Source: Bolinopsis microptera (taxonomy: Eukaryota; Ctenophora; Tentaculata; Lobata; Bolinopsidae). From it: a DNA stretch of 64,000 bases. Of this stretch, positions 7,726-28,087 are shown piece after piece. Location: contig NC_087083.1 of assembly GCF_026151205.1 (NCBI RefSeq), positions 9,235,460-9,299,459 on the forward strand, written 5' to 3'. The notes beneath the pieces were generated by a model. The model did no database searches. It was not told the DNA's origin and saw only the letters and a list, made by a program, of their open reading frames with translations. The translations under genes and the position numbers were made by a program. Position 1 is the stretch's first letter, and each line of letters starts with the position of its first letter.

Positions 7726-7856
7726 ACATGTGAGGTGGTAAGAGTGGGAGGGGTAATAGTCTCGGTCACACGACACCCTGACCCTATCTCCTGGTTCCAC
7801 GCTAGTTCCTGGCATTACCGTTCCGTGGTCCACGTGCTGACCAGGACATGGCTGGG
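7726..7856 (-). pseudogene. Possible CCP/sushi half-module exon
   Basis: On the minus strand an ATTATCCAG acceptor precedes a frame that reads like the first half of a CCP module: CPGQHVDHGTVMPG, then a V.VSCD..Y pattern and a third Cys in HLTC. The acceptor phase (two bases before the first codon) matches the phase-1 introns usual for CCP modules. The frame hits a stop soon after the third Cys and the W..P.C end is missing, so this is either a fragment or an exon whose partner I could not find. Possible small downstream exons near 7585-7625 and 7481-7541 have plausible splice sites but no recognisable domain. Confidence 0.35.
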
Positions 7857-8248: not shown

Positions 8249-10268
8249 TGGTTCTTTCTTAGTTGTGCATATGTTAATTGGTTCCTAAACTTTCTTAGTT
8301 GTGCATATGGTAATTGGTTCCTAAACTTTCTTAGTTATGCATATGTTAATTGGTTCCTAAACTTTCTTAGTTGTGCATATGTTAATTGGTTCCTAAACTT
8401 TCTTAGTTGTGCATATTTTAATTGGTTCCTAAACTTTCTTAGTTGTGCATATGTTAATTGGTTCCTAAACTTTCTTAGTTGTGCATATGTTAATTGGTTC
8501 CTAAACTATCTTAGTTGTGCATATGTTAATTTGTTCCTAAACTTTCTTAGTTGTGCATATGTTAATTGGTTCCTAAACTTTCTTAGTTGTGCATATGTTA
8601 ATTGGTCCCTAAACTGTCTTAGTTGTGCATATGTTAATTGGTTCCTAAACTGTCTTAGTTGTGCGTATGTTAATTGGTTCCTAAACTTTCTTAGTTGTGC
8701 GTATGTTAATTGGTTCCTAAACTTTCTTAGTTGTGCGTATGTTAATTGGTTCCTAAACTTTCTTAGTTGTGCATATGTTAATTGGTTCCTAAACTGTCTT
8801 AGTTGTGCATATGTTAATTGGTTCCTAAACTTTTTTAGTTGTGCATATGTTAATTTGTTCCTAAACTTTCTTAGTTGTGCATATGTTAATTGGTTCCTAA
8901 ACTTTCTTAGTTGTGCATATGTTAATTGGTTCCTAAACTTTCTTAGTTGTGCATATGTTAATTGGTTCCTAAACTTTCTTAGTTGTGCATATGTTAATTG
9001 GTTCCTAAACTTTCTTAGTTGTGCATATGTTAATTGGTTCCTAAACTTTCTTAGTTGTGCATATGTTAATTGGTTCCTAAACTTTCTTAGTTGTGCATAT
9101 GTTAATTGGTTCCTAAACTTTCTTAGTTGTGCATATGTTAATTGGTTCCTAAACTTTCTTAGCTGTGCATATGTTAATTTGTTCCTAAACTTTCTTAGTT
9201 GTGCATATGTTAATTGGTTCCTAAACTTTCTTAGTTGTGCATATGTTAATTGGTTCCTAAACTGTCTTAGTTGTGCATATGTTAATTGGTTCCTAAACTT
9301 TTTTAGTTGTGCATATGTTAATTGGTTCCTAAACTTTCTTAGTTGTGCATATGTTAATTGGTTCCTAAACTTTCTTAGTTGTGCATATGTTAATTGGTTC
9401 CTAAACTTTCTTAGTTGTGCATATGTTAATTGGTTCCTAAACTTTCTTAGTTGTGCATATGTTAATTGGTTCCTAAACTTTCTTAGTTGTGCATATGTTA
9501 ATTGGTTCCTAAACTTTCTTAGTTGTGCATATGTTAATTGGTTCCTAAACTTTCTTAGTTGTGCATATGTTAATTGGTTCCTAAACTTTCTTAGTTGTGC
9601 ATATGTTAATTGGTTCCTAAACTTTCTTAGTTGTGCATATGTTAATTGGTTCCTAAACTTTCTTAGCTGTGCATATGTTAATTTGTTCCTAAACTTTCTT
9701 AGTTGTGCATATGTTAATTGGTTCCTAAACTTTCTTAGTTGTGCATATGTTAATTGGTTCCTAAACTTTCTTAGTTGTGCATATGTTAATTGGTTCCTAA
9801 ACTTTCTTAGTTGTGCATATGTTAATTGGTTCCTAAACTTTCTTAGTTGTGCATATGTTAATTGGTTCCTAAACTTTCTTAGTTTTGCATATGTTAATTG
9901 GTTCCTAAACTTTCTTAGTTGTGCATATGTTAATTGGTTCCTAAACTTTCTTAGTTGTGCATATGTTAATTGGTTCCTAAACTGTCTTAGTTGTGCATAT
10001 GTTAATTGGTTCCTAAACTTTCTTAGTTGTGCATATGTTAATTGGTTCCTAAACTTTCTTAGTTGTGCATATGTTAATTTGTTCCTAAACTTTCTTAGTT
10101 GTGCATATGTTAATTGGTTCCTAAACTTTCTTAGTTGTGCATATGTTAATTGGTTCCTAAACTGTCTTAGTTGTGCATATGTTAATTGGTTCCTAAACTT
10201 TTTTAGTTGTGCATATGTTAATTGGTTCCTAAACTTTCTTAATTGTGCATATGTTAATTAGTTCCTAA
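8249..10268 (+). repeat. 36-bp minisatellite, about 56 copies
   Basis: The unit CTTTCTTAGTTGTGCATATG plus 16 further bases repeats about 56 times with few substitutions. Because 36 is a multiple of 3 and one frame lacks stops, it forms a 677-codon ORF with a 12-residue period (NWFLNFLSCAYV); this is almost certainly not a gene. Variant units recur in order: the series around 9178-9310 reappears exactly 900 bp (25 units) later at 10078-10210, and a C variant at 9163 recurs 504 bp (14 units) later. This shows expansion by duplication of multi-unit blocks. Confidence 0.97.
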
Positions 10269-10327
10269 ATGTCAAAAATATCAAATAACGGAGTAGTTCG
10301 CTGTTTATTAGTCTCATGATTGAAATA

Positions 10328-11074: not shown

Positions 11075-14000
11075 TTAAACATCAGATATGTCTTTGGTGC
11101 GTTTACCCGGAGTCTGTTTACTTTCTTCGGCAATACCCTGGAAGTTTTTACATGCCCTTCGAGCCATCTCCATATTATTCGGTTTATTTGAAGGGCCTGG
11201 GAGCTCCTCTGCTGTGATGCAACCAGCATTTGGTACTTTTTCATCATTATCTACTTTTTTTAAGTTAAGCGATGTAAGTGTTGCCCAAGATTTTCCAGAT
11301 CGTGACACACTTTTCACACTAGCAGAGACTTTTGTTGTCAAGGTGTTGTCGTACAGCAGGGGGTTTATCACTGAATTGATTGGCAGCACCAAAATTGAAA
11401 ACAGAGCATACCATGGGCTGGCGTCTATAACACCAATAGTGTGCAGAGCACACGTACCAATAAAAGGTATCCAACAGCAAAAGTCAGTGAAGATGATGAT
11501 TGCTACTTTGCGGTTCATTTTCCGGTTTCTGTGCCTGACCATAGTGTTTGATTTGTTCTTTGTAAGACTTTTGGAAGATCTGGTTGATGTCACAGCAATA
11601 ACAATGTATGACAGTGATATCACCATGAAGCAAACGCAGTTGATCATCAATATAGCCCAAACATACCGTTTTTGCGGATCATCAGCTCCAACGAAGTATT
11701 TAAAAAGGCAGACACCGTCGTTGCCATAGAAACCGGCTTCTGTATGAGTAAGTCCACCATAATTCGACGTAAACATACTGTTCATTAGATCGATTATCAC
11801 TTTCCAAGAAAGATCCCGATCTTTCATTCTCCCATAGTAAGCCTTAAGCACACTTTTGTGTTTATTTTTGTCAGGAAAGCCAGCAAAAAGCGGAATATTA
11901 GTGCTGTATGATAAGCCATTCACAAAGTAGTCACCCAAGGAAGGGTGGAGCGGAATCATTGCTATTGCAAAAGATGCAATAATAACTGTGAGGATGATGA
12001 CAATGTTTTTGAGCACGCCAATCTTTGACAAGTGACCACCCAATTTCATTGCATTCTTGATTCCGTACATTCTAGCAATGCTCAGTATAGTCATCGAGAA
12101 GAGAGAGAACTGGGAACCAACAGTGCTGACAACACCTAGCACCGAGCAAGATGTGCTTGTCAACCAGGCCTTTTGAGTTTGGCAATACTGGTCACCCTTG
12201 ACATGATCAACAACAGAAATTGTTAGCAGGTATCCTCCGACTAGGAAATCCCCCAGGCTTATAAGCATGATGAGGAGTTTATTGAGCAATGACATAGCTG
12301 TAGAACACTTTTTAAAGGCAGTTATGCTTTGAATCAAAACTACACAGTTTAGAATGACTGCCAAGATTCCAATCGCCCATGAAACCCCCTTAAGAATTTT
12401 ATCTTCGATAATGTTTTTGCCACAGCGTTCATTACACTCATCAGAAAGGTCCATGCAGTCAAATACTCCATCACACTGCTGCGTCATTGCGATCAGGCTA
12501 GCTTTACTATCTTTACATCGAAAATGATTCGTGCACAATATTTCATCACTTCCATCTCCACAGTCATCAACTAGGTCACAGACTTTGTCAAAGGTCACAC
12601 AACGATTGTTTTCACATACGAATATATCACTGCTGTACGATTCTTCAGTGTTTATCAAAAATGTCAGTTGATCATTATCGACTACCGTATAAACTCGATC
12701 GGGAAACTGTCCCGGACAGGAATCATGACTGACTGGCTTTACCAGTGGACATTTGGCATCATTACTGCATTTCCCTTCACAACTCATGTAAATGTACAGT
12801 TCTCCATGCAAATATTCGCAGTTGAATATACTTTTGGGCAGAAATAACTTTTTTCTTTCCGTCAACCCAAAAACATTCCCCTTTGGATAGTTAAAATTCC
12901 TTGGATTACATTTTGAGGCGAGCTTTTCCAATGTCGTTAGTCCTTTAAGACAATAAGATATTTGGACGGTATCTGTTGATGACATCGTAGCATGCATTCC
13001 ATGAACATCAGGCTTGTCTCGCGATAGTTTGCATACAGCATTTTCATTTCCACATGTATCTACTCCGTCACAGAATTCATCCATTCCGATGAACTTTTTG
13101 TCTCCATGTAAGCAGATGTAGTCATCTGTACAAGATTTTATATCGCTATGGGTCACAAAACGAACAGTTTCGCCCATTCCACAAGTTGGCCATTCGTTCA
13201 GTTCGTCTTCCCCATCTTTACAATCTTTTACGCCATCTTTTAACCAGGCAAGTGGTATTTTCAAATCTTTGTCACCAACTCGTCGACGACAAGTATCCTC
13301 AGTGAGTAGCGAGCAGATGATGTTTTCTTCATCACTTTCATCATAACAGTCTGAAGTATTGTCACACATTTTATGTTTGTGTATATTGCTACATGTGGAT
13401 GAAAGATCAACGCACACATTTTCTATTCCATCACTACATAGGCTCATATCTTTTATTCCATGACACAACATTTGTTCCGAAACGGTCGCCTGATATCCAT
13501 TGACTCTGCAAGATAAACCAACTTTGGAGGGGTCGGAACAGTTTGTTTGATCTAGATAGTCTTCACAATATGGACTGTATGTTTGATTTAACCAGAAAGC
13601 TTTGTCAATAGCTGCTTGTGTATACTTGAAGGGGCTGCATCTGGTGTAGTTCAGAATAGGGACTGGGAGTGGGGATTCATCTTCCAGCCCGATGACATCC
13701 GAAATCGAGTATGGTTTGAGAAAGTGATTGCAACTATGAATGGTAAGATTAGTTTCAAATATTTCCCTAAATGCGCCAAAAGTTGTCATATTCTTTGTCA
13801 ATGAAGCGGTATTCTGATGATCCTCCAGTCCCACCAGATTAGGAGGACAATAGTGATCTCCGCAGTTTATTCCATAGCGGTATCCATTGCATTCTAATTC
13901 ATCCTCACAGTATTCTATGTCACAATATCCATCACATATTTTTGATCGAGTTAAATTTGTCCCACTGTATTGCGTGCAGTTAGCTTCGTCCAAGTCAGTG

Positions 14001-14322
14001 TTAACACACTCGCTCTCCTTGTTGCACGAGTAAGAAATGTCAGCCTTGTATCCACTGGTGAATATTCCATTCTTCTCTTGGCAGATATAGTACCCGCAAA
14101 AGAAGTTGTCATCGGACTTCAGCTCTTCATTGTGTCCTGCACCACATGTTTGATAGAACTTAGGATCATTTTCACACAACTCACTAAACTTACTCCATCC
14201 AGGCAAAGCTGCTTCGATACTGTAAAACGTCTCAGACTCCAGACATTGGAAGTATTTATTTCCATTGTAGTCTGTGCAGATGTTTTTCAAGAAGCTGTTG
14301 TGTTGTGAAATCTTACAGGTAT
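11075..14322 (-). CDS. Receptor exon 11: Cys-rich/LDLa ectodomain, seven-helix domain and tail
   Basis: One 3248-nt exon. The ectodomain has many Cys and at least three clear LDLa repeats: CDNTSDCYDESDEENIIC, CDLVDDCGDGSDEILC and CDGVFDCMDLSDEC, plus weaker ones (CDGYCDIEYC, FCDGVDTCGNENAVC). The Asp/Glu cages should bind calcium. Seven hydrophobic segments follow: TM1 near plus-strand 12395, TM7 near 11350. The DRY motif at the end of TM3 is replaced by ARM, TM6 has FTDFCCWIPF, and TM7 has NSVINPLLY. The tail is Ser/Lys-rich. The open frame continues upstream to an ATG at 14341, but the spliced frame enters at 14322 after a TTTCCAG acceptor. Confidence 0.9.
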
Positions 14323-17300
14323 CTGGAAAGTTCGTGTGCATTCAAATAAATTAAGGTGTCAAAAGAAACGATTTAAAAGTTTTTTAAAATATTTTTAATC
14401 GAATTTTTGTGGAATATAGATACCTTTATTTAGCCTTAAAGGTCGAAATTTGAATATGCTTCAATGCCTACCTTTGTTTGAAAAGCAAGTCAGGAATACG
14501 TCTTGATGATGATTGCAAACAGATGCGTTCAGGGTTTTATAAGCACATTCTCTGAACGTTTCGTTATCTTCGTCACAAACCACTTCAGACAACATTGTTT
14601 CGTAATGTTTTTGTACGTTCCAATTTTGACCTATTGTCCAGTTTTCAGCTCCTCTGTATCCCATTTCTTGACAAATCAGATTAGCTGATTTGTCATTGAA
14701 GTTCTGTCCGCAAACTACTCCAGCCTGAGTGTTGAAACATTAACCTGGTAACCTGGTAACCTGGTAACCCGGTAACCAGGTAACCAGGTAACCAAGTTAC
14801 CAGGCAGACTAGCTGATTTGTCATTGACGTTCTGTCCACAAACTACTCCTGACTGAGTTGAAAAAATAAAATATCAGCTGTTATCAATAAATTACTGTTT
14901 GAAGTGCTTATATTAGGTTCGGGCGTTGACGAATTCAAAATTTAATTTTACAATACAGCTATTTTTATAATAGTCCCTTTTAATGGGAAAATTTTCAGAT
15001 TATCCTTCACCGTTGGTTGGCAAACATATATTTTAGGCAATGTTAAACTTGTGAAGTACATTTTAGTATTGGTGGAAATTATTAGATCTATAGTCATTCA
15101 GCAACTTACCTTGGAGTATCCAGCTCGGTTTGCAACAAGAAGACCGGCATTTTGTCCTAATCTTATATTTTTATTGTGCTTATCTATTAAGCTGAATAGA
15201 AATCCCCCTGATTGAAGATTTTCCATTATTGTTGAAAATAATGTACTGAACGTTTAAACGTCAAAAAATCTAACTATCTTATTAAATACTGATTATAACT
15301 CACAATCAAGGGATTATATGGAATTTCGATTAATTTGAAGAAACGGTTGAGTTTATTTATTTTAGACAAAATATAGCAAAGGTGCTTTAAATTAATGCAA
15401 TACAAAATAAAAACAAAATTACCTCCGTTTGTCATGTAACTTCTATTTGTAAGAATATGCATGCACTTTCCATAGTATTTTATCATCATCCCTTTGTATT
15501 TTCGTAATCTATTCAGGTCGACCTTAAATTTCTGCTCTATCTCTTTTCTGTTGATAGTCAGTACATAATACTTTTCAGTTACCAGCACATATATCTCGTT
15601 TTCTCTCGTTAAATCAGGCAAGTTTGCTTCAAATCCTTCTGCCCATTGATATTTGCTTATTTTCGAAGATACAATTAGCTTTCTGTATCTGTTTTTATTG
15701 TGAAGTCGAAAGTCGAGATGATACATGCTGTAGTCATCGTTGTCCACAAGGTTAAATGTGAATCCACATCCTTTTCCATAATCTCCAGTGAATAGAGCAT
15801 GAATGTAGAAGGTCGAGGAAACTTCCAACACCATATCAGTTGTAAAGATTTGCTTTCTATGAATGTCCGAATAGTTGTATTCCTTTAATTCAAAATTGGC
15901 AAACTTTTCGCGGCGCTCTGAAATCATTCAAAAGTATTAAATTAAGAGGCCAAAATATGAATATAAGATGTATCAAATAACACATATTATCACACTTTCG
16001 AGCCAAATTTGGCAGGAAAGCAGAATTGATATTACATGCCCCGATGGGGAGCACTGGCTCTCACCCGGGGGCATGAAATATCAATCAGTTGCTCAGAGAG
16101 ATCCCGACATTCCCATAGGAACAAGGAGCCCACACTCAACAACTGTTCTACTACTGTGAGGTACTGATTTAAATAAAGATTTAAATCAACAACCTGAAGT
16201 AGTCTATGACCGTAAATGCAATGATCAGATTAACTTTCCAGTATTAGGAAAAATATGTAAATATAGTTAGTTTTTAAAACATTTCCTTGCGTTTGAGATG
16301 TGTTAAGCGAAATAAAATTTTTTGTTGTAATACTTTTTCAAGCTGTTGCTTTTTTACTGCACTTCATAGTTCAAAGCCTAATTAGGCTTCGGATGATGAA
16401 ACAAAGTAAAAACTCCTTGGCTTGTACGAGCTTTAAGTGACTTAAGATTACTGAAAACGAGATCAAAGTTTACAAGCAGACTTGAAAGTTGCACAAAGTT
16501 TTGGTACTTGTCAGCGATACAATCAATCAGGCTAATTGATTTCCTTAATCGCTTACTTGAAATTAAAAAGGAAGTGTCAGAACAAACTACAGTCGCCCTC
16601 ACAAAAAATAGTAAACACTAAACGATGTTTGATTAATTCGAACGAAGAAAACACACAAAACAAGAATCTATTAAGTCAAGAGTTACTTTCATAAACAATA
16701 CTAAAGAGTACGGATGTCTGCTCTTGATATTAAAACAATCTAGAGTTGTATTGAAGAGATACATTATATTAGTACGGCTGTTCTGATAATTTCTAGTGAA
16801 GCAAATAATGGCAAGATGAATATAAGCAGACTATTATAATACTCGATAAAATTCAATAAAAGTCAATGATTACAAGTTCCAGTGATAAATCATTCTGAAA
16901 TAACAGACAATCAAGACGGACGATAATATTGTTGATATATGTATTAGGGCTTGTAGTACGAGTACAACATGAACAGTTGAAAATTTGGACTTATGAATAG
17001 ACAATCATGGCGCCACAGCCCAATTCAAATATAACAACCAGGAAATACTATCACCTTATCGCAGATTAGTATTACATGATAAGGACTAGGATGTAATCAA
17101 CACTAAAACAGATGTTCTATACATTATACATCTTCAGTTTTAATGACTCAAAATATATCTAATAGAAATAAAGTATAAGAATCACCTCACATCGATTGAT
17201 ATGCAGGAAATAATTTATAATTAAAATACGCGCTCGTGGTGGAATATTCTAGAATGCAATAAGTACAAGACCCATAGGCGTGAATATATTGATATTCGAT

Positions 17301-20300
17301 GCACTACGTACCAATAGAAAGCAAATTGGGCGCGGCATACAGCATTCACTGTGTCATAAATGTGGGAACGTGAGATCCTAATTTTACATATTGTATCTTC
17401 GATATCTGAAATACTAACTCATCGAGATCTATATAATATATAAATATATAGCTTAGACATTATAAACATAAATAAGTTCGGCATGTCTAGTTTGCTTTGG
17501 TGAGATTTATAACTAACGTTTGATCAAATTCTGCTTCTTATGAATAGACAATTATGGCGCCACAGCCCAATTCAAATATAACAACCAGGAAATACTATCA
17601 CCTTATCGCAGATTAGTATTACATGATAAGGACTAGGATGTAATCAACACTAAAACAGATGTTCTATACATTATACATCTTCAGTTTTAATGACTCAAAA
17701 TATATCTAATAGAAATAAAGTATAAGAATCACCTCACATCGATTGATATGCAGGAAATAATTTATAATTAAAATACGCGCTCGTGGTGGAATATTCTAGA
17801 ATGCAATAAGTACAAGACCCATAGGCGTGAATATATTGATATTCGATGCACTACGTACCAATAGAAAGCAAATTGGGCGCGGCATACAGCATTCACTGTG
17901 TCATAAATGTGGGAACGTGAGATCCTAATTTTACATATTGTATCTTCGATATCTGAAATACTAACTCATCGAGATCTATATAATATATAAATATATAGCT
18001 TAGACATTATAAACATAAATAAGTTCGGCATGTCTAGTTTGCTTTGGTGAGATTTATAACTAACGTTTGATCAAATTCTGCTTCTTATGAATAGACAATT
18101 ATGGCGCCACAGCCCAATTCAAATATAACAACCAGGAAATACTATCACCTTATCGCAGATTAGTATTACATGATAAGGACTAGGATGTAATCAACACTAA
18201 AACAGATGTTCTATACATTATACATCTTCAGTTTTAATGACTCAAAATATATCTAATAGAAATAAAGTGTAAGAATCACCTCACATCGATTGATATGCAC
18301 GAAATAATTTATGATTAAAATACGCGCTCGTGGTGGAATATTCTAGAATGCAATAAGTACAAGACCCATAGGCGTGAATATATTGATATTCGATGCACTA
18401 CGTACCAATTATAGAAAGCAAATTGGGCGCGGCATACAGCATTCACTGTGTCATAAATGTGGGAACGTGAGATCCTAATTTTACGTATTGTATCTTCGAT
18501 ATCTGAAATACTAACTCATCGAGAGCTATAAGTATATATAGCTTGGAAATTATAAACATAAATAAGTTCGACATGTCTAGTTTGCTTTGGTGAGATTTAT
18601 AACTAACGTTTGATCAAATTCTGCTTCTTATGAATAGACAATCATGGCGCCACAGCCCAATTCAAATATAACAACCAGGAAATACTATCACCTTATCGCA
18701 GATTAGTATTACATGATAAGGACTAGGATGTAATCAACACTAAAACAGCTGTTCTATACATTATACATCTTCAGTTTTATGACTCAAAATATATCTAATA
18801 GAAATAAAGTATAAGAATCACCTCACATCGATTGATATGCAGGAAATAATTTATGATTAAAATACGCGCTCGTGGTGGAATATTCTAGAATGCAATAAGT
18901 ACAAGACCCATAGGCGTGAATATATTGATATTCGATGCACTACGTACCAATTATAGAAAGCAAATTGGGCGCGGCATACAGCATTCACTGTGTCATAAAT
19001 GTGGGAACGTGAGATCCTAATTTTACATATTGTATCTTCGATATCTGAAATACTAACTCATCAAGAGCTATATATAGCTTGGAAATTATAAACATAAATA
19101 AGTTCGACACGTCTAGTTTGCTTTGGTGAGATTTATAAGTTCTAACGTTTGATCAAATTCTGCTTTCCCGGCCAAATTTGGCTCCAAAGAAAGTGTGATA
19201 AAACATTAATCACATGCCTTCTCATGCGATATCAACATTTTCAAAACTCGGCAAGCCTCGTGATTGAAAATGTCGATATAACCCTCGGCAAGCCTCGGGA
19301 AATATCGAAACTTTCGCTAACTCGGCAAGCCTCGTGGGCGAAAGTTTTGATATCGCATGAGAAGGCATGTGATAAATGTATAATATGTTATATCAAATAT
19401 TCATCTGACAGGTAGAATATTTGATATATTTATCTAATTTTATGTAATTCTTCTATATGAAATACTTTTATATTAAAGTAAATATTAACCAGTGTACCAA
19501 AGGCAAAAGCTGGTGCACAAACAACAAGTATCAAAGGTTTTTATTTTGAATATGATCATACCCTGTGAAGTTTTACAATTCTGTCTATATAGATGTCAAA
19601 CAGAGGCACATATTAGGTGCGGTAAAAAAATCGAAATTATGCGGTACCGCACCCGACTATAAAGGTAAAATGTGCGGTAAGTTGCGGTAAATTTTTACCA
19701 ATTATGCGGCAAATGTGCGGCGATTTTTTCGAAATTTGTGCGGGAATTGTGCAGTTTTCTTTTGCATTTTCTCAAGGACTTTGGAAATTCTAAACGTATA
19801 ACCGCCGCTCTTATCAAAAATAGGTCTGTTTATGTGTTACTGAGGGTGTAGTTCTTTACTAAGACCATGATTGAACCTATATTGAGATTCAGTTATCTGA
19901 GAACAGTGACGTGGTGAAGTTACGAATGATAACTGATAAACTATAATCAAAGTATGGTAACGACGAGGGTTTCATAACGGCCTGGGTCACGGTCCCGAAA
20001 GGGCCTGGGTCACGGTCCGAAAGGGCCTGGATCACGGTCCCGAAAGGGCCTGGGTAACGGTCCCGAAAGGGCCTGGGTCACGGTCCCAAAAGGGCCTGGG
20101 TAACGGTCCCGAAAGGGCCTGGGTCACGGTCCCGAAAGGGCCTGGGTCAGGGTCCCGAAAGGGCCTGTGTCACGTGGTAACTGGGTCACGTGGCCTAGGC
20201 ACGAGTTCCAAAAGGGCCTGGGTCACGGTCCCGAAAGGGCCTGGGTCAGGGTCCCGAAAGGGCCTGTGTCACGAGGTAACTGGGTCACGTGGCCTAGGTA

Positions 20301-23300
20301 TGAGTTCCAAAAGGGCCTGGGTCACGGTCCCGAAAGGGCCTGAATCACGGTCCTAAAAGGGCCTGGGTCAGGGTCCCGAAAGGGCCTGAGTCACGGTCCT
20401 AAAAGGGCCTGGGTCAGGGTCCCGAAAGGGCCTGAGACACGGTCCTAAAAGGGCCCGACTATAACATATTTTGGTTTTTACACTCGAAAATCTTAACGCG
20501 AAAATTTCAAAATTATGCGAAATCACGCGGAAAATGCTAGATTATGCGGAAATATGCAGAAAATTACAAAATGTGCGGACATGTGCGGAAAACAATAAAT
20601 TATGCGGACATGTGCGGAAAACGGTAAATTGTGCGATCCCGCACCCATCGCACCTAATATGTGCCTCTGATGTCAAAAGGTATTCATGGTATTATTTTAG
20701 TATTACCTTTTGTAATTTGGATGCATGTTGTCGACGAATCTATTTTGTGACTGTAAACAGCTGACTCCGTGCATTTAGCAGTGGTATTTGATTCTGAATC
20801 AAGTCTGTATCCTACATCACAGAATATCGTGACTGAAACTCCTGCGGGGACTTCACCACCCGGACTTAGAAATCCATGTTCCACTGAGAGTGGAGGACAA
20901 TACACTGAAAGTGAAATTTAAAAATGTTAGAGTATGAGTTTTAAGCACTTGAAGGAATCAAATAATCGGCATGTTTTGACCAGGTATTTGACAAACATTG
21001 CAAACTGGAGGTACCAAAAGTGACAAAAAGAACTCCCAAACTTAACCCATGGATTACAGACAGTATCATCCAGTCTGTAGAAAGAAAGCATGAACTGCGT
21101 AAGGAGTGGTCTGACACCGTTACTAATAAGAACCCTGGTGGTAATATCTTGCTCTACCAAGTATTTAGTGATTATCGTAGGATGCTTAAAGCTATCATTA
21201 AAGCTGCCAAACGTTGGCATTACTGTAACGAAATCCTAAACAACTGTGAAAATAGCAAGAAAACCTGGCAAATTATTAACGAACTCAGGGGCAAAAAGAA
21301 GAGGCAAACCAAGCCCCCATTTATCATTGACAACCAAAGAATAGTTGATAGAAGAGCTATTGCTAATGGATTCAATACTTGGTTTGTCTCTATTGCACCA
21401 AAGCTGAATGAGACACTGAATAATCTATCTTATGGTCTGCCTATATTACCCATGAAAACTTTCTATGACTTCCTGAACCCAAGAAATGAAAAAAATATTA
21501 GGCTAGAAGATTGCTCCTCGAACGAAATATTGAAAATCATAAGCGAGTTCGAAAATGGTAAAGCCAGTGACATTCCCATAAGTGTAGTAAAAAAGTCATC
21601 TCATGTAATTGCACCTGTATTATCGAATTACTTCAATATCCTTATGACCAAAGGTATATTTCCAGATGTCCTGAAGACTGGTAAAATAACTCCTGTATAT
21701 AAGAAAGGTAACCCAGAAGAAATCGAGAACTACCGTCCTATCTCCACACTGTCCGTCTTCGGTAAGATCTTTGAAAAGCTCATATATTCTAGAATATACG
21801 GATTTGTTAGCTCCCAGGGAGTTATATCGAAGACACAGTTTGAATTTAGGAAATCTCACTCAACATCTCATGCAGTCAATTACTCTGTAAATTTGATTAC
21901 GAAATCTCTTAAACTTAAGAATCATGTTTTAGGAATATTCATTGACCTAAGCAAAGCTTTTGACACTATCGACCATTCAACACTTCTTATAAAATTAGAG
22001 GGATGTGGAGTGAGAGGAGTTGCAAATAACCTCATCAAAAGCTACTTGACAAACAGGCAACAATACACCGAAGTTGTAGGAGAAAAATCAGATACCCTAT
22101 CTATCCAATTTGGTGTCCCACAGGGTTCAATTCTTGGACCTCTCCTATTTCTTCTTTATATGAACGACATCACAAACAATTCTAAACTAGGATCATTTGT
22201 TACCTTTGCTGATGATACCAATATATTTGTTGTCGGCAAAACAAAACGTGAGGCATATGAACGAGGAAATGAGCTTTTGTCATCATTGAAGTCTTATATG
22301 AGAGCGAATAAGTTACATATAAACATGTCCAAGTGCTGCTACATACACTTCAAACCCACCATGGCAGGTTCTAAGTCAGAGACTTTATCACACCCTGAAG
22401 TTGCATTAACTATAGACAACTTTCCAATCAAAAAGGTTTCATCCGCAAAATTTCTGGGTGTTATAATTGACGAGAACCTATCATGGGATGATCACATCAA
22501 AGCACTTAAGCGAACTCTAAATCATTCCACATCCACTTTATGTAGACTTCGCTGCTCCCTTCCAGAATTTCTACACCAACAATTATATTATACCCTGTTC
22601 GAATCACATCTTTCCTACTGTATATCTGTATGGGGTGGGGCAGCGAAACAACGTATAAGCTCATTATTTACTGCTCAGAAGTACTGTCTCAGAGTACTAT
22701 TTGGTGACAGGCTGGCGTACCTTGATAAGTTCAAGACTTGTGCACGTACTAGGCCCATAGGACACCAGAAACTTGACCAAAAATTTTTCATAAAAGAGCA
22801 CACCAAACCGATATTTAAGCATAATAATATTCTATCTATACAAAATCTCTATACATACCACAGTTACCTCGAGCTCTACAAGATAATGAAATTCCGTGCT
22901 CCAATATCCCTACATGAGGGTTACACATGTTCCTCAAGGAAACCCTGTCTTCTAATCTGTCAGGCAGACCCACCTGACAATCACAACACTAGATCAACCA
23001 AAATTTTTAACATTTTAACCCCAAAGTTCAGAATGACTGACTTTACTACTAGTGTAATGTGCTTGCGAGGTAAGTTAAAACGTGCGCTATTAGCTAATCA
23101 ACATAATCACGCCCTGCTTGATTGGACCGTCAAAGATTTTGACTGCACAAATGTTATTGTCCAAACATAACTGGCTGGTCACACACATCTCAATTAAAAT
23201 TACGCTAGGCCACTGTTTTCCAAGTCTTGTCCTGTGAGTAAAGTATGTGTGAGAAAGTTTTAATAAAATCATTGTATATTTATTTTTGAATTTAAAAAAT

Positions 23301-26300
23301 CTAATTTGAGAATGAAGGTTAAAGAAATTTTTAATTAGCACTGTATAGTTTAAGATATTTATAGCTTATTATAACAATTGATACAAAGGCCATAATCTTT
23401 CACCAGCTCTCCAATATCCACCTTGAAGCTGCATTTTATATCCTAAATATAAACTAAATCATGTTTTAGTGTAGACTTTTTGTCACAACAAGACTGCAAC
23501 CTATAGTAACAATTATAAACAGAACCTCTAATGTCTGCTAACAATTTTTCTTCTAGTCCTAATCTGAGCCTTGTCTCTAAAAACTTAACTGAACTAGCGT
23601 TTCGGTGTGTGCAAAAGCTTCCAGGCACGCGCATTCCTTGCCCCGTTAGTTACCTGTCCTTCATAAACCAAACTAGCAGTCAGGACAAAAAGTCATACAC
23701 CAAATGGGCATTATATTTTATGAATTATTTTACATCTTTTTATTCTGTAAAAATGTGCTAAAATTAAATTTCTTGTTTCATTGAAAAATTTCTTGTTTCA
23801 TTGATTGAATAATCGCAAATAATGCAATATAAAGCTATTTGGTGGACGTGAAAATTGAAATGTATATATTATGCTACGAAATATTGTATTTAGTAACAAC
23901 CCCAACCTCCCCAGTCCCTGAACAATATTCAGATCAAATTTATGGGAGAAGTTCTCCCATAAATTTGATCTGAATTATAATTGCGTTCTCCCGGGGAAAC
24001 GCAATTATAATTCTCAAAACAGAACTGTACCTTTTGTGCAAATATTGCAGCTTCTTTTACAGTTCTCTTTCATGTACAGAATGTAATCTCCTGTTGGATG
24101 ATTTATAGTTATCGCATTGGATATAATTTTGAATCATGTGTAAAATGTGTTCCTGTTCCTCCTTGTATTACTACTTAACTTAACACATTTGGATAATTCC
24201 AACAGATTCCCCGAAGAGATATAACCTGAATACAATCAATGTCTTTTTTATTGTGTTTTCTCAGTGTAAAATGGGAAATTATACAAACCTGTGTCACAAT
24301 GCCCCAAAGAAGCCCATTGAATGCAATCAGCAGCATCGTCGTGACAATCACTTTCAACTGAAACGAAAAAAATATTAATTCATATCTTTATTTCAAAATT
24401 TGACTGCACTTAGGATCAAAAGAAGAAAAAAGAAAAAACAATTTTTTGTGAACAACCCCTAAGTGAAGTAACTGCACCCACACGCAACCTTTAAAATTTC
24501 GGAACTGAGAGTATAGACACACGCCACACATGATTTCAGCTATAATATTATGAGTATTTATGATTTAGCTTTAAGATCAAAATACTTACCACTGCATGTA
24601 GGTATATCACAATACTCCCATCGAGGCACAGTTCCCTCAGCATTATAACACCAGGCGCCTGATTCACTGAGGAAAATGATGACACATGTTATAATGAAGA
24701 ATTTATTATGGAACAATGATTATGGAACACTGCCAGATACCAGATATCAGATATTGAAGACTTACCCGTCTGGATTTCTGCAATAGTTCTCTTGCAGTCC
24801 TGAATCAGAGTATCTGAAAATGTTTTTGTAATAAGCTATTGTCCTAAAGTAGGTAGTTTTGTGAATCGTAACTAACAATTTGGATTCTTCCGAGAGCCCT
24901 TTTAGAAACATTTCGAAGAATAAATCTAAATCTGGATTATGCCGTATTGTTGCCGCCTGTGGGTGAGACTAGCTTATACCTGTTGTGCCTTAGAAGCACC
25001 AAGAAAACTTACCTCTCAGCAGTTCTGCTGTGTTTATTAGGTGATTGAGAGTCCCATCTCTGGCAGACGTGTCCTGATACTGTGACAGATACAGTTCCCC
25101 TGTAGTCTGATCCATCCGCTTTACCAACACACTCGTCTGGAGCTGGAGTTAACCCATTTGTTAATCTTTTTAGAAACGTTAATAATGAATAAAAGTAGTT
25201 TCTTGATAAACGATGGCTTGATAGTGAGGTAAATTGGGGTTTACGGTAAATCTGCGTTTGCGGTAAATTGGAGCGCAGTAAATCTGCATTTGCGGTAAAT
25301 TGGAACGAAGTAAATCGGAATTTGTAAACAAGGCCAGGGCGAGGTTAATCGGACATCTGTGAATCGGAGCGCGCGGAGAATGTCGTATATGATCTACAAA
25401 GGCTGTAAGACCTCTGGAGTCGATGCAAACATTTTCAGACCTCTAGTTCATTAAAGGACTAGGAGGGCGTGGCAGCCTCATGATGATTAAAAAACATATT
25501 TTCCAATATCTGGCATTCTGGCTCATTATTGTTTATACGAAGTGGAAAACATACGATGTCAAGTTTAGAAACAATCACTAAGGTATTCTACTCTAAACTT
25601 AAGTTTTAATAATATGCAAAAATATTTTAACTTTATTATCATCACTCGATGGACGATGACGTCATCAAGTTAAGCGTTTTTAAAGCTTGATTGAGTATTT
25701 TTTCCTGTCGGGTCATCCTTTGGGATGTGGAGCTAAGTCTGGTTTGTATACTTAGGGGTTTCTCACATATTACGAAATAAATATTTTGGCAATTTTTAAC
25801 CCCCTCCCCTCCTCAATAATCAACCGTAATCAAGACCCCCCCCCCCCCCCCCCCCCCCCCCTTTTTGCCTTTTTTCTCATTTTTCCCTGGAAACACTTTT
25901 TAGTACGTTTGATGCTACCCTGATCATAATCAGGCGAAATTATTGTTATGATATCCGGCCAAACATCTTTCAAACTACTTTAGTTATCTTAAACAATAAT
26001 CTCAGAATGTGTGTGTGTGTGTGTGTGTTCTGTTTGTGTGTCTGCGTGTAATTTCCGAGCGGCTTCATCAAGAAAACGGTAAAAGTTACGGGGCTGGTTT
26101 TTTCGGTATAGTGCCGACAAAACTACGAGGAAGTCAAATGGTAAAGGGTTTTTAAATCGGTCGGTGGTAAGTGGTTTGATTGATGGTTTTTGTACCACAA
26201 ATGTTACATAAAATGGCTTGAGCAGCTTAATCAAGAAATCGGTAAGAGTTACAGGGCTTGCTCTCTTTCCCATTACTGCATAATATTATGTATCGTTGGT

Positions 26301-28083
26301 ACATATATCATTATTACACTGTCATGGATACTTTAAACTTATTTATAGGGGAGTGAGCGCCTATAGCGGTCTGTTTGAACTGTAGAGATAGTTCATACTT
26401 TCATACTTTTATACGACAATGTAATGCATGTTTTCAAATATGCGGGTGTGGTGCGGAGTTAATAAAGTTTAAGATACTATTGGATACGTGAGGGCACTCC
26501 GAATAGAATTGTTCAGATAATGCGGGTTTTGACTCAGTAGGTAAATTTAAATACTCCTACCCTTTTTAACTGCGGCAGTGAAATCCCGGCCGAAGGCCGG
26601 GTTACACTAGTAGTAGTTATATACCTTATCGGACCTTATTTGGACGGACATTACTTGAACGGACATAATTATGAACGGACATTAATATGAACGCTAGAAG
26701 GCAATCAAAACCATCAAAAATCCGAATTTTTTTCATCTTTTTTAAAACTTTTTTTAAATTTTAGCAAATAATTTTCAAACCCATTTTTCATACAGTAAGC
26801 AAAAAAAGCAGTTTTTAATCAGTAAACATGTTAAAATATGTGTACATGATTATTGTCTTCTATCACATATCATATTCATCAAATGGGTTTTCGTGCATTA
26901 AATATTCCATGCTTAAAGCATCAGTAATACCCGCTTTTTGGAAACCTTTTTTTTAATCAAACTACCTCGGTCCTACATTTCAGTGTAAACTTTTATAACT
27001 ATAAGTATAAGCAATTCGGCGTGAAGTGGTTTTATTTAAGACAACTTTAGGTTAACCTTAACATCACGTGGAGCTTTCAATTTCCCAACACTTATCTGTT
27101 TCATTACCTCCCCTGAGTAATATGAACTATAATAACGTCGGACAATGTTCTTGGCAACACGATTTAACGTAATATCTAGAGGCTGAAATGTGAAACAAGT
27201 GTGTGATGTTGGCGGGGACTAGCTCATGAACTATGTTGTTGAGTGCCATAATTTCGTTGAATTTTTCCGTCCCTTGAAGTGATCCTTGAAAACATCATAT
27301 ACTAGAAAAGTTTTCTGTGCCTCCGGCAGACCAAGGAGAACTTTTCGTCGTTAACATACGGCACTATATGATGTTCTCGATAAAATGTATTGTTGTAGAT
27401 TCATTTGCCCAATGTTTTTCGTTAAAAATAACCTCAAAGTCTTTCGGAAAGAAATGTAGATCAAGATATTGATAATGCCATAATGTGACATTTACAATTT
27501 AGATCGTTAAAATTTTACAATAACTAGTTTTCATTGATTCAACGATATAGTTTAGTTTAATGATACTGATAGCTATTGAAATTGACTGAAATTAAAAGTT
27601 GTCATATTCTGGACAAAAAGTTCGAAATGGAAACATTTTCGAAAAAAATTCAACGGACTTTAACTTGGACGGACATTAAATGAACGGACTTTATTTGAAC
27701 GGACATTAAGATGAACGCTAGGGCCTCCAGCGTTCAAGTAATGTCCGTCCAAATAAGGTTCGATAAGGTAGTCGGATATCTGATCAATTTCTAAATTTTA
27801 TCACTATCACTATCAGAGTGAAATTGAGTGGAAATTGAATTAAAATATTGTCAAATTGTTATTATTGTAGAAGGTAAAAAAGAACATTTTGATAACTTAA
27901 TCAACGACCAAATGATATCCAATAAGGTATATTCAATCATAATCGAAGCTGTTCTTATTAATTGATAAATTTTAGTATCAGTATCAATTATGCATAGTCC
28001 ATACCTTTTATTTGTTCAGCATCAGCAGGTCCGATTAACGTCACGAAAACCAAAGCCATCAACACAAGCCTTGGATACATCAT
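11075..28083 (-). CDS. Chimeric adhesion-type GPCR: kringle-ShKT-CCP-galectin-SRCR-LDLa-7TM (11 exons)
   Basis: Exons, 5' to 3' on the minus strand: 28083-28005, 25136-25013, 24813-24766, 24666-24590, 24357-24289, 24090-24031, 20904-20707, 15917-15423, 15207-15110, 14724-14472, 14322-11075. All junctions have GT..AG and compatible phases; the sum is 4749 nt, 1582 aa plus stop, with no internal stop. Approximate residues: signal peptide 1-23; kringle 27-109; ShKT 110-152; CCP 153-218; galectin-like 220-383; SRCR 395-500; Cys-rich with LDLa repeats 500-1130; seven helices 1140-1495; cytoplasmic tail to 1582. The helices carry FTDFCCW in TM6 and NSVINPLLY in TM7, the signature of the LGR/relaxin-receptor branch of rhodopsin-type GPCRs. 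No leucine-rich repeats are present. Most module borders are phase-1 introns, the class used in exon shuffling. It probably sits in the plasma membrane and senses an extracellular glycan, protein or microbial ligand; the ligand is unknown. Introns hold several transposons. Confidence 0.85.
14472..14724 (-). CDS. Receptor exon 10: SRCR domain, body
   Basis: Encodes AGVVCGQNFNDKSANLICQE then MGYRG, and later SEVVCDEDNETFRECAYKTL and a final Cys pair, the scavenger-receptor cysteine-rich pattern V.C...F....A...C...GY...C...E..L..C. Acceptor CACTCAG, donor AAAG/GTAGGC, phase 1. The beginning of this exon, with its acceptor, is copied at 14806-14863. Confidence 0.85.
14740..14804. repeat. GGTTACC palindromic repeat
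   Basis: Three to four copies of AACCTGG/GGTAACC switch to the complementary orientation at about 14772, forming a long potential hairpin. It lies in the intron between SRCR exons, exactly between exon 10 and its partial copy. Confidence 0.85.
14806..14863 (-). pseudogene. Partial duplicate of the SRCR exon start with its acceptor
   Basis: 58 bp nearly identical to 14680-14737, including the first codons of exon 10 and an ACTCAG acceptor. The copy runs into the palindrome instead of the rest of the exon, so it cannot encode a full SRCR. It could act as a decoy acceptor. Confidence 0.75.
15110..15207 (-). CDS. Receptor exon 9: SRCR domain, start
   Basis: A 98-nt exon encoding the first strands of the SRCR domain (IRLGQNAGLLVANRAGYSK). 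Acceptor CAATCAG, donor AAG/GTAAGT, phase 0. It joins exon 10 to give the usual hydrophobic-V-V-C sequence. Confidence 0.8.
15423..15917 (-). CDS. Receptor exon 8: galectin-like domain
   Basis: A 495-nt exon with a ~130-residue beta-sandwich. It shows a galectin-style F.IH....G..G..F.FN start, a W.E pair (KYQWAEGFE) and an ENEIYVLVTEKYYVLTI strand pair, so a carbohydrate-binding fold is likely. The canonical H.NPR motif is replaced by HLDFR, so sugar binding is not certain. Acceptor GATTTCAG, donor GGAG/GTAATT; it joins the CCP exon and the SRCR exon in frame. Confidence 0.7.
15988..19200. mobile_element. TIR element containing a satellite array
   Basis: Sequence around GAGCCAAATTTGGC and AGGAAAGCAGAATTGAT at 15988-16030 is repeated inverted at 19150-19200. 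Between them lie about 1 kb of sequence without a recognised gene (16160-16990; a 74-codon minus-strand ORF at 16378-16602 has no recognisable domain) and the ~545-bp tandem array. It occupies the intron between the CCP and galectin exons of the receptor. Similarity may extend outwards to about 15965 and 19410, interrupted on the right by the foldback element at 19203. Confidence 0.6.
16995..19166. repeat. Satellite, four copies of a ~545-bp unit
   Basis: Units begin GAATAGACAATYATGGCGCC at 16995, 17542, 18089 and 18632 (spacing 547, 547, 543). The copies differ by only a few percent, mostly short indels around an AT-rich TATATAT stretch. The end of each unit (GTTTGATCAAATTCTGCTT) matches the inner part of the flanking inverted repeat. 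Confidence 0.97.
19203..19375. mobile_element. Foldback element with CTCGGCAAGCCTCG repeats
   Basis: Arms ATCACATGCCTTCTCATGCG and its complement enclose three copies of CTCGGCAAGCCTCG, each inside a smaller hairpin (for example AACATTTTCAAAA...TTGAAAATGT). It seems inserted in or beside the right end of the preceding TIR element. Confidence 0.7.
19601..20669. mobile_element. Non-autonomous hAT-type element with 8-bp TSD
   Basis: Perfect 21-bp inverted ends CAGAGGCACATATTAGGTGC... (19601) and complement (to 20669) are flanked by the 8-bp direct repeat ATGTCAAA (19593-19600 and 20670-20677). A CAGAG-type end with an 8-bp duplication is the hallmark of hAT transposons. Both subterminal regions are rich in TGCGG. 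The centre is a GC-rich minisatellite and no transposase remains. It lies in a receptor intron. Confidence 0.9.
19978..20457. repeat. GC-rich minisatellite of ~23-24 bp inside the hAT element
   Basis: About 20 units of GGGCCTGGGTCACGGTCCCG-AAA type with variants (GTAACGG, GTCAGGG, a GTCACGTGG insertion). GC content is far above the surrounding DNA. It is bounded by the TGCGG-rich subterminal parts of the element. Confidence 0.95.
20707..20904 (-). CDS. Receptor exon 7: CCP/sushi module
   Basis: One 198-nt phase-1 exon encodes a complete CCP: YCPPLSVEHGFLSPGG, a G..V...CD.GY segment, AKCTES and a final Cys in TTCIQ. The Trp usual before the last Cys is not present. The acceptor is TTTCAG and the donor AAAAG/GTAATA. 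The intron upstream carries a LINE in the opposite orientation. Confidence 0.85.
20963..23300 (+). mobile_element. 5'-truncated LINE (Jockey/CR1-group type)
   Basis: Homology starts abruptly within coding sequence near 20963-20972 and runs through the RT ORF into an AT-rich 3' UTR with AATAAAA near 23263. It sits in the receptor intron in opposite orientation. The 3' boundary and target duplication could not be fixed. Confidence 0.75.
20972..23170 (+). CDS. LINE reverse transcriptase (C-terminal ~730 residues of ORF2)
   Basis: Copies LINE RNA into DNA at the insertion site. RT motifs are complete: GKITPVYKKGNPEEIENYRP, FIDLSKAFDTIDHSTLL with catalytic Asp, GVPQGSILGPLLF, and the catalytic FADD in TFADDTNIFV, then the FLGVIID segment. 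After RT comes the C-terminal region with LDKFKTCARTR. The apurinic-type endonuclease is missing, as expected of a 5'-truncated copy; coding sequence is open from 20972 although the first ATG is later. The frame is intact for more than 700 codons, so the insertion is young. It cannot be autonomous. Confidence 0.92.
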   Translation, partial: CFDQVFDKHCKLEVPKVTKRTPKLNPWITDSIIQSVERKHELRKEWSDTVTNKNPGGNILLYQVFSDYRRMLKAIIKAAKRWHYCNEILNNCENSKKTWQIINELRGKKKRQTKPPFIIDNQRIVDRRAIANGFNTWFVSIAPKLNETLNNLSYGLPILPMKTFYDFLNPRNEKNIRLEDCSSNEILKIISEFENGKASDIPISVVKKSSHVIAPVLSNYFNILMTKGIFPDVLKTGKITPVYKKGNPEEIENYRPISTLSVFGKIFEKLIYSRIYGFVSSQGVISKTQFEFRKSHSTSHAVNYSVNLITKSLKLKNHVLGIFIDLSKAFDTIDHSTLLIKLEGCGVRGVANNLIKSYLTNRQQYTEVVGEKSDTLSIQFGVPQGSILGPLLFLLYMNDITNNSKLGSFVTFADDTNIFVVGKTKREAYERGNELLSSLKSYMRANKLHINMSKCCYIHFKPTMAGSKSETLSHPEVALTIDNFPIKKVSSAKFLGVIIDENLSWDDHIKALKRTLNHSTSTLCRLRCSLPEFLHQQLYYTLFESHLSYCISVWGGAAKQRISSLFTAQKYCLRVLFGDRLAYLDKFKTCARTRPIGHQKLDQKFFIKEHTKPIFKHNNILSIQNLYTYHSYLELYKIMKFRAPISLHEGYTCSSRKPCLLICQADPPDNHNTRSTKIFNILTPKFRMTDFTTSVMCLRGKLKRALLANQHNHALLDWTVKDFDCTNVIVQT
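23929..24012. repeat. Two adjacent perfect hairpins
   Basis: A 22-bp perfect palindrome with a one-base loop (23929-23973, TCAGATCAAATTTATGGGAG...) is followed directly by a second one with a CCCGGGG centre and ATTATAATTGCGTT arms. It lies just downstream of ShKT exon 6 in the intron and could form a cruciform or RNA hairpin. It is probably a small foldback element. Confidence 0.85.
24031..24090 (-). CDS. Receptor exon 6: ShKT domain, second half
   Basis: A 60-nt exon encoding DYILYMKENCKRSCNICTK, the YM...C..SC..C end of ShKT. It restores the six cysteines and keeps the frame (60 is divisible by 3). Acceptor CAACAG, donor GTACAG. An alternative reading at 24170-24230 was rejected because it lacks the last cysteines. 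Confidence 0.85.
24289..24357 (-). CDS. Receptor exon 5: ShKT domain, first half
   Basis: Encodes ESDCHDDAADCIQWASLGHC, matching C.D....C..WA..G.C of the ShKT fold. This is an extracellular six-Cys module common in animal proteases and receptors, not by itself evidence of toxin activity. Acceptor TTTCAG, donor GTTTGT, phase 1. Confidence 0.85.
24590..24666 (-). CDS. Receptor exon 4: kringle, C-terminal part
   Basis: A 77-nt exon encoding ESGAWCYNAEGTVPRWEYCD and IPTC, the kringle end with WCY, RWE.C.IP.C and Cys 4 to 6. All six kringle cysteines are present over exons 2 to 4, so the module should fold. The donor is GTAAGT, phase 1. Confidence 0.9.
24766..24813 (-). CDS. Receptor exon 3: kringle, middle
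   Basis: A 48-nt exon encoding YSDSGLQENYCRNPDG, the highly conserved kringle NYCRNPDG segment with the third Cys. It has a TTTCAG acceptor and GTAAGT donor, too short to be seen as an ORF. Confidence 0.9.
25013..25136 (-). CDS. Receptor exon 2: kringle, N-terminal part
   Basis: Flanked by CTCCAG and GTAAGT. It encodes DECVGKADGSDYRGTVSVTV and SGHVCQRWDSQSP, the classic kringle start with the first two Cys and the YRGT..VT.SG..CQ.W motif. It joins exon 1 in phase 1 and exon 3 in phase 2. Confidence 0.9.
25836..25861. repeat. Poly(C) tract, 26 bases
   Basis: An uninterrupted run of C in an AT-rich intron. Comparable G or C runs occur at 31028-31048, 32263-32281, 36254-36283, 37309-37332, 39090-39111, 39507-39523, 40831-40844, 46231-46241, 46513-46534 and 63675-63686. 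Confidence 0.95.
26000..26610 (+). mobile_element. Probable non-autonomous Helitron
   Basis: The right end has the Helitron signature: a GC hairpin CCCGGCCGAAGGCCGGG (26585-26601) followed by TTACA and CTAG, with T after it. A candidate left end is TC at 26000, preceded by A, starting TCTCAGAATG and a (GT)n run, which is common near Helitron 5' ends. No Rep/helicase is present. The left end is less certain than the right. Confidence 0.55.
26624..27768. mobile_element. TA-flanked TIR element with TGAACGGACATTA motifs
   Basis: Inverted ends of 38 bp with one mismatch (CCTTATCGGACCTTATTTGG...) are flanked by TA on both sides, as in Tc1/mariner-like insertions. Three to five copies of TGAACGGACATTA-type motifs follow each end (26650-26695 and 27655-27715). 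The AT-rich middle has no ORF. It lies in the first receptor intron, 14 bp after the probable Helitron end. Confidence 0.85.
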
Positions 28084-28087
28084 GATT
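28005..28087 (-). CDS. Receptor exon 1: signal peptide
   Basis: Two consecutive ATG codons (28083 and 28080) begin MMYPRLVLMALVFVTLIGPA, followed by DAEQIK, a good signal peptide. The donor is AAAAG/GTATGG, phase 1. A TTTTTTTTTAG acceptor sits four bases before the ATG (28088 onwards), so a non-coding 5' exon should lie further upstream. I use the first ATG; the second would remove one residue. Confidence 0.8.

Follow-up and report, generated by a model that had tools for sequence, protein, structure and literature searches.

A comb-jelly gene predicted to join kringle, ShKT, CCP, galectin-like and SRCR modules to an LGR-type seven-transmembrane region, and the cassette family to which it belongs

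Among the leucine-rich-repeat-containing G protein-coupled receptors (LGRs), the relaxin receptors RXFP1 and RXFP2 are reported to need their LDLa domain for activation (PMC5468325), and the GRL101-type receptors of bilaterians and cnidarians are LGRs with multiple LDLa domains (PMC4079206). Mnemiopsis also has an LGR, described in 2014, with 20 leucine-rich repeats (PMC4079206, section 8), and its architecture is unlike that of the receptor examined here. Adhesion G protein-coupled receptors (GPCRs) of amphioxus carrying kringle, SRCR, LDLa and C-type lectin domains were published in 2008 (PMC2246102), and in a table of 2025 the extra domains of Adhesion receptors include Kringle, and those of Rhodopsin receptors include leucine-rich repeats and LDLa (PMC12716839). 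Here we describe a receptor gene found on a stretch of 64,000 nucleotides of the Bolinopsis microptera genome (C12:9235460-9299459, hereafter the window), in which a series of extracellular modules is joined to a seven-transmembrane (7TM) region. Sequence comparisons place the gene in a large LGR-like family shaped by exon shuffling.

Eleven exons were rebuilt on the minus strand between positions 11075 and 28083, with GT-AG borders in 10/10 introns, phases consistent throughout and a spliced frame that runs uninterrupted for 1584 residues. An earlier reading of the window, made from the letters only (the sequence-only reading), had proposed eleven exons with good splice sites and matching phases, and a frame of 1582 residues. 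Exon 1 (28005..28083; all the features of the gene lie on the minus strand) provides the start codon and the signal peptide MMYPRLVLMALVFVTLIGPADAEQIK, and was assigned from its frame and donor and from an 88% identical exon that adjoins the ShKT exons in a paralogue at C5:5.99 Mb. The first, middle and last parts of the kringle are encoded by exons 2 (25013..25142), 3 (24766..24813) and 4 (24590..24666), as indicated by the gene model and Pfam, and the whole kringle is 85% identical to that of the annotated Bolinopsis protein P0188. The two halves of the ShKT module occupy exons 5 (24289..24357) and 6 (24031..24090), for which the gene model and Pfam are joined by the C5:5.99 Mb paralogue, 87% identical in the first exon and 100% identical in protein in the second. 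Exon 7 (20707..20904) encodes the CCP (Sushi) module, and exon 8 (15423..15917), open over 165 residues, a module tentatively labelled galectin-like, with 49% identity to its counterpart in the Mnemiopsis protein P0014; the corresponding exons of the paralogue are 91% and 92% identical respectively. The SRCR module is divided between exon 9 (15110..15207), identified from the gene model, the P0014 comparison and the paralogue, and exon 10 (14472..14724), recovered also by an SRCR search of the same genome.

Exon 11 (11075..14322) consists of a 1088-codon open frame with Pfam matches and forms a one-exon cassette that comprises a cysteine-rich core, LDLa repeats, the 7TM region, a cytoplasmic tail and the stop codon. 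Within it, the best-scoring of four LDLa stretches (residues 1068-1099) falls at 12533..12628, derived by hand from the exon map, and the LGR-type 7TM region, delimited by predicted helices and by matches to solved structures, at 11294..12400, also derived by hand. The ectodomain up to the first helix contains 77 cysteines and 14 N-glycosylation sequons. Phase 1 was found throughout, at the exon-1 donor, at the entry into exon 11 and at the introns on either side of each module block: kringle (exons 2-4), ShKT (5-6), CCP (7), galectin-like (8) and SRCR (9-10). The outer modules are thus symmetric 1-1 units that can be added, lost or swapped with the frame intact. The exon structure was confirmed, and the window gene is a real receptor gene.

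The domain content was assessed by the Pfam scan that the sequence-only reading had suggested. In the spliced protein Kringle (2.5e-24, 85.8 bits against a curated cut-off of 34.3), SRCR (6.5e-12, 46.1 bits against 26.1), ShK (2.2e-6, 28.6 bits against 20.9), Ldl_recept_a (1e-6, in four stretches) and 7tm_1 (1.9e-12) all exceeded their curated cut-offs, in agreement with the kringle, ShKT, SRCR, LDLa and rhodopsin-type 7TM originally read from the sequence. The CCP module went undetected in the full-length protein and in the kringle-to-CCP piece, while exon 7 scanned by itself returned Sushi at 1.7e-5 (25.6 bits against 20.7), which bore out this module as well. No leucine-rich repeat family occurred in the scan of the spliced protein up to E 5 or in those of six annotated relatives up to E 1, and neither 7tm_2 nor GPS, by which an Adhesion GPCR would be recognised, was present among the matches of the spliced protein up to E 5.

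The name galectin, which the sequence-only reading had given to the product of exon 8, was not confirmed. Gal-bind_lectin gave no Pfam match for exon 8 in either the full-length or the exon scan, and the counterpart in P0014 reached E 0.12, below the cut-off. In a profile-profile comparison (hhalign), the exon 8 profile matched five human galectins with a probability of 3.3/100, with column shuffles equally good in 1/200 cases; the H..R and W positions line up with the galectin motif at this same low probability. A PDB sequence search with exon 8 returned no matches, and a protein-database search with residues 221-420 was empty and uninformative, since it missed the known positive P0014 too; relatives of exon 8 were recovered from the same genome. 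A two-sequence profile of the exon matched two repeat proteins (v31Bagel8 and a cell surface protein), taken as chance, and a single-sequence AlphaFold model with a predicted local confidence (pLDDT) of 39.5 was not used. We therefore refer to the module as galectin-like, and use the name tentatively.

By sequence and predicted structure, the 7TM region is LGR-type. Its best matches among solved structures were LHCGR (1.2e-16), TSHR, FSHR, RXFP1, a nematode receptor and LGR4. The AlphaFold model of the exon-11 protein (mean pLDDT 65.5, predicted template-modelling score 0.45) displayed a helical bundle at residues 641-1009, and in a Foldseek search with this model the listed ranks 1-28 were all LGRs. 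The LGR-type GPCR of the sequence-only reading is thus retained for the 7TM region, as PDB and Foldseek matches agree, and not for the ectodomain, where no leucine-rich repeat was found. Signalling motifs were inspected in an alignment (A4) of 58 sequences, namely the window protein and 57 relatives picked by hand from 120 listed database matches, which was also the AlphaFold input. D2.50, C3.25, R3.50 and the cysteine of the second extracellular loop were conserved in 58/58 sequences, W6.48 and P6.50 in 57/57, and Y7.53 in 50/58 (F in seven, L in one). Coupling to G proteins is plausible. As a separate observation, R3.50 is invariant beside a position 3.49 that is never acidic in the 58 sequences, and the basal activity may be altered.

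The joining of the modules to the 7TM exon was assessed on annotated relatives and on a compact paralogue. The Mnemiopsis leidyi protein ACHWQZ_G010191 (P0014) has the order CCP, galectin-like, SRCR, core, LDLa and 7TM as in the window gene, with identities of 38% for CCP, 49% for the galectin-like module, 56% for SRCR, 54% for core and LDLa and 55% for 7TM, and crosses the same four joins (CCP/galectin-like, galectin-like/SRCR, within SRCR and SRCR/core). The Bolinopsis microptera protein LOC134822838 (P0188), which is matched at 100% in this genome over its residues 167-1238, links its kringle, 85% identical to that of the window gene, to a core of the same type with LDLa and 7TM (core and 7TM 41% identical), and its kringle exons sit upstream of its cassette on C11. 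In the paralogue at C5:5.99 Mb, which spans about 7 kb, splice acceptors and donors were identified for the order signal-ShKT-ShKT-CCP-galectin-like-SRCR-cassette, with identities to the window gene of 88% for the signal exon, 45% for the extra ShKT, 87% and 100% for the ShKT exons, 91% for CCP, 92% for the galectin-like exon, 76% and 79% for the SRCR exons and 93% for the cassette. These three genes support the single gene, with module exons upstream of the 7TM exon, that the sequence-only reading had put forward.

The alternative that an upstream secreted modular protein is followed by an intronless 7TM gene agrees with the one-exon structure of the cassette and with the start of 80/121 relatives at 40 residues or less from the cassette start, most of these 80 being unspliced open-frame predictions that are blind to upstream exons. 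P0014, P0188, P0098 and P0092 are, on the other hand, annotated as single proteins containing both modules and cassette, and a good acceptor leads in phase 1 into exon 11, where the match with P0014 carries on over the SRCR/core join. The division of the 7TM region and the modules between separate genes is contradicted by P0014, P0188 and the C5:5.99 Mb paralogue, on which the two-gene arrangement was rejected; we regard it as hardly credible.

A narrower version of this doubt concerns the kringle (exons 2-4), which, with or without ShKT, might belong to another transcript or to an alternative set of first exons, so that the receptor would start nearer to the CCP. P0014 runs from CCP to 7TM with a different N-terminus, in which Pfam names nothing, and no kringle was seen between the signal and ShKT exons of the C5:5.99 Mb paralogue, nor nearby among the genome-search matches listed; moreover, introns 1-2, 6-7 and 7-8 are 2.9-4.8 kb long, with a reverse-transcriptase element within intron 6-7. 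Nevertheless, we consider this version quite unlikely. The kringle exons lie between exons 1 and 5, on the same strand and in phase, kringles stand ahead of the cassette both in a paralogue on C13 and in P0188, and an N-terminus of the P0014 type, sought in the window by tblastn, was rejected (best E 0.079, with stop codons). Exons matching exons 1, 5 and 6 are located directly ahead of the CCP in the compact paralogue, which indicates that the signal and ShKT exons belong to the receptor. In Mnemiopsis, P0014 repeats the domain order from CCP to 7TM in a model without kringle and ShKT.

The copies of the gene in the same genome were then compared. Over 1482 codons shared by the window gene and the C5:5.99 Mb paralogue, the nonsynonymous (dN) and synonymous (dS) divergences were 0.043 and 0.125 (dN/dS 0.35), and the shared exons are shown to be under purifying selection; the kringle falls outside this comparison because that paralogue is without one. 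The dS values were 0.41-0.59 in the SRCR exons 9 and 10 (14472-15207) against 0.06-0.17 in exons 1, 7, 8 and 11, exons 5 and 6 being too short for judging dS, and the raised values in the SRCR exons look like mosaic gene conversion or a mosaic history. In the more distant C13 paralogue two kringles are followed by galectin-like, SRCR and cassette, with neither a CCP nor a ShKT exon recognised in between. A degenerate locus at C5:7.13 Mb holds a kringle exon and CCP and galectin-like pieces with stops, together with a P0014-type N-terminal stretch recognised by reading only.

Another chromosome holds a near-identical copy at C5:5.67 Mb (C5:5673437-5723448), which shows 99.85% identity across 5151 bases and 6 differences within exon 11 (3248 bases). 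About 19.6 kb separate the two parts of its galectin-like exon, and their flanks have 7 bases in common, as in an insertion; the copy may be either a duplicate locus or a misplaced haplotype. This copy, with its split exon, together with the mobile element and satellites inside the introns of the window gene, would fit a decaying duplicate or an assembly duplicate in the window in place of a working gene. We judge this very unlikely, as 11/11 exons are open with good splice sites and the dN/dS against the 93% identical paralogue is 0.35, although this ratio covers the whole time since the split.

The window gene has its core, LDLa and 7TM in one exon with the conserved cysteines, the features by which members of the ctenophore cassette family are recognised. 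A search of the same genome with exon 11 listed 50 matches, 43 of them long (43 of 756 candidates scored); a piece covering transmembrane helices 6-7 matched at 150/150 scored places out of 445 candidates, and P0188 gave 37 matches (37 of 876 candidates scored), of which 22 were new. The union of the cassette searches amounts to at least 172 places, distributed over each of the 13 large contigs and over four small contigs, with 48 within 50 kb of another; these counts set a minimum for the family, in which some fragments and pseudogenes may be included. Residues 620-1000 of the exon-11 protein matched 1117 entries of the protein database at E 1e-5 or below, and five of the 120 matches listed carried an organism name (Mnemiopsis four, Bolinopsis one).

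The annotated relatives differ in their modules. Pfam recognised two F5/8C-type stretches in P0092, SRCR-TSP1-SRCR in P0098, a kringle in P0188 and LDLa and 7TM only in P0112; P0025 showed an extra N-terminal LDLa with a weak F5/8C match (0.079, below the cut-off), P0063 carries F5/8C according to its database listing, and a CCP in P0063 and P0092 was read from the sequence with no Pfam match. In P0188, Pfam showed neither ShK nor Sushi, nor a galectin or SRCR family. The kringle is 85% identical between this gene and the window gene, while core and 7TM together are 41% identical.

The surroundings of 30 cassettes were examined with profiles seeded with the modules of the window gene, with P0014, P0063, P0092, P0098, P0129 and P0188 and with the CCP of L007 and L039. 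A recognised module was present within 1.5 kb on the 5' side of 8/30 cassettes, and on the 3' side and in antisense of 0/30. The matches of L001, which is the window gene, and the CCP match of L007 arise by construction, because the profiles were seeded with them; the three module-bearing cassettes outside the window gene's clade were L006 and L007, with F5/8C and CCP, and L029, with SRCR. A second test of proximity, within 20 kb, covered 150 scored of 344 SRCR candidates, 46 exon-2-type kringle matches picked by hand from those listed (150 of 343 kringle candidates scored), with full-length kringle matches omitted, and the 150 cassettes of the helix 6-7 search. SRCR matches lay on the 5' side in 14/150 cases (8 cassettes, window gene included), on the 3' side in 2/150, both between two C7 cassettes, and on the opposite strand in none, whereas exon-2-type kringles lay on the 5' side in 5/46 cases (4 cassettes by position) and never on the 3' side or the opposite strand. 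A minority of the SRCR and kringle exons examined is thus tied to cassettes, and the tie is one-sided. The module differences among copies suggest a repertoire, built by shuffling, with which surfaces or microbes are sensed, and the window gene is among the most elaborate members of the family found.

The outer modules belong to domain types that have proteins, glycans or microbial surfaces as their ligands. We consider it probable that the window gene is a single gene for a cell-surface receptor whose outer modules bind a surface ligand, whose LDLa core relays the binding and whose 7TM region signals through a G protein. The predicted order runs from signal peptide, kringle, ShKT, CCP, galectin-like module and SRCR to the cysteine-rich core with LDLa repeats, the LGR-type 7TM region and the tail. 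The outer modules would most likely bind a target on a surface, such as a glycan, a protein, a microbe, prey or another comb jelly; binding may then alter the LDLa-bearing core, which would activate the helices in a manner comparable to the relaxin receptors, and the activated helices would pass the signal to a G protein. The role of the receptor may lie in immunity or self-recognition, as the sequence-only reading inferred, or in prey sensing. We propose more tentatively, and with some reservation, that hundreds of ctenophore one-exon LGR-like cassettes can each take up phase-1 lectin, scavenger and kringle modules and provide a direct G-protein readout of microbial, prey and self/non-self surfaces.

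Several observations weigh against a recognition receptor of this kind. The joins from kringle to ShKT to CCP in the window copy are predicted by the gene model, with no outside protein model across them, and the galectin label is weak, exon 8 alone scoring 0.14/100 against galectins in hhalign. No recognised module was located within 1.5 kb of 22/30 cassettes, and 5/8 of the positive ones belong to the window gene's own clade. The acidic residue of the DRY-type motif (3.49) is absent in 58/58 aligned sequences, which have T, V, A, I, G or L instead, and coupling may therefore be unusual. Finally, given the 99.85% identity of the C5 copy, one of the two copies could be an assembly duplicate.

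A different function is conceivable, in which the modules are structural or adhesive, the receptor is peptide-hormone-like (relaxin or glycoprotein-hormone) or chemosensory, and the expansion is sensory, serving neither immune nor self recognition. The nearest 7TM regions are indeed those of hormone-type LGRs, and the annotated Mnemiopsis protein P0112 has 22 residues only ahead of its core. An independent radiation is reported for ctenophore GPCR clades, for which a sensory function is discussed; 79 GPCRs fall in top-10% selection windows, and two Mnemiopsis species differ most in copy number at a GPCR (PMC13231562); a Beroe gene with RXFP1 as top hit is among the comb-row and aboral-organ genes (PMC11184263). 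On the other hand, SRCR, CCP, F5/8C and galectin-like modules recur ahead of several cassettes, and a plain hormone receptor needs none of them, so that we find this function rather unlikely. With regard to the recognition receptor that we prefer, after a second bacterial exposure of Mnemiopsis 8/12 differentially expressed SRCR genes were up, the candidate immune genes having been unchanged after the first, and the figure legends of that study place a 7TM symbol in the C-type-lectin panel and not in the SRCR panel (PMC11797021). This induction of SRCR genes, which may or may not include members of the cassette family, represents indirect support for a microbial role.

Repeats and mobile elements were noted in and around the gene. 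Intron 6-7 contains a 734-codon frame on the plus strand (20966-23170) with a reverse transcriptase domain (RVT_1 2.4e-36), a mobile element, and in intron 7-8 a unit of about 547 bases is repeated four times head to tail (about 17000-19130), as recognised by sequence reading. At about 14805-14858 on the minus strand the acceptor and first part of SRCR exon 10 are partially duplicated (57% over 30 columns); this duplicate, followed by a short repeat, forms a decoy acceptor, and an alternative exon starting from it (about 14858-14805) was rejected, since the frame from its acceptor reaches a stop within exon 10. A 36-base tandem repeat (8254-10269) with 56 copies and 97% matches lies close to the receptor gene on its downstream side, and is found also beside the C5:5.67 Mb copy. 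A CCP-like fragment on the minus strand (7756-7848), with 42% identity to exon 7 across 31 residues (E 0.003), is possibly the remnant of another receptor. A 227-codon frame on the plus strand (6183-6866) includes a 33-base tandem repeat that encodes a coiled-coil-like stretch and a C-terminal part with cysteines, with Pfam matches below the cut-off only. Elsewhere in the window we found a reverse-transcriptase frame on the minus strand (56008-57720, RVT_1 2.2e-30) and, by reading, a reverse-transcriptase-like frame on the plus strand (59557-62040) with repeated blocks of about 566 bases.

If the proposal is correct, a GPCR scaffold whose outer domains can be exchanged serves comb jellies, a group often regarded as the sister of all other animals, in the role filled elsewhere by Toll-like, scavenger or immunoglobulin receptors. 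The junction of such modules to a G-protein-coupled core would make the sensing of microbes, prey or one another by comb jellies directly testable, and such a receptor clearly exemplifies how exon shuffling can reach rhodopsin-type GPCRs. In the open-licence literature searched, as far as its accessible parts extend, no description was met of a ctenophore receptor family that bears modules and lacks leucine-rich repeats; a study of sponges describes diverse GPCRs and SRCR genes, with nothing in its accessible text that could be matched to the cassette family (PMC8242945).

The closest parallels share different parts of this architecture. The sequence-only reading knew of no GPCR with kringle, ShKT, galectin and SRCR; kringle GPCRs do exist in amphioxus and oysters. 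The amphioxus receptors have in common with the window receptor recognition-type modules, including kringle and SRCR, ahead of a GPCR, but belong to the Adhesion class, whereas the window receptor is 7tm_1, with no 7tm_2 or GPS among its Pfam matches up to E 5. Six predicted oyster proteins (P0151, P0160, P0166, P0175, P0178 and P0189) combine a kringle, leucine-rich repeats, LDLa and a rhodopsin-type 7TM (7tm_1). Kringles, LDLa and a rhodopsin-type 7TM thus meet in a single protein (for example P0151 and P0178) as in the window receptor, but with leucine-rich repeats and, by sequence reading, several kringles, and no SRCR, ShK or Sushi in the domains listed. As the oyster carriers are bivalves, their combination is probably independent of the ctenophore one. 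The GRL101-type receptors likewise have several LDLa repeats ahead of an LGR-type 7TM, but are described as LGRs, with leucine-rich repeats, of which none was found in the window receptor. Compared with the LGRs as a whole (glycoprotein-hormone receptors, RXFP1/2 and LGR4), the window receptor has no detected leucine-rich repeats, its ectodomain is predicted to consist of kringle, ShKT, CCP, galectin-like and SRCR modules with the cysteine-rich core, and its 58 aligned family members are all without the acidic DRY-type residue. The LGRs are nonetheless its most similar matches in the 7TM region, by sequence and by predicted fold, and with RXFP1/2 it also has the LDLa repeats in common.

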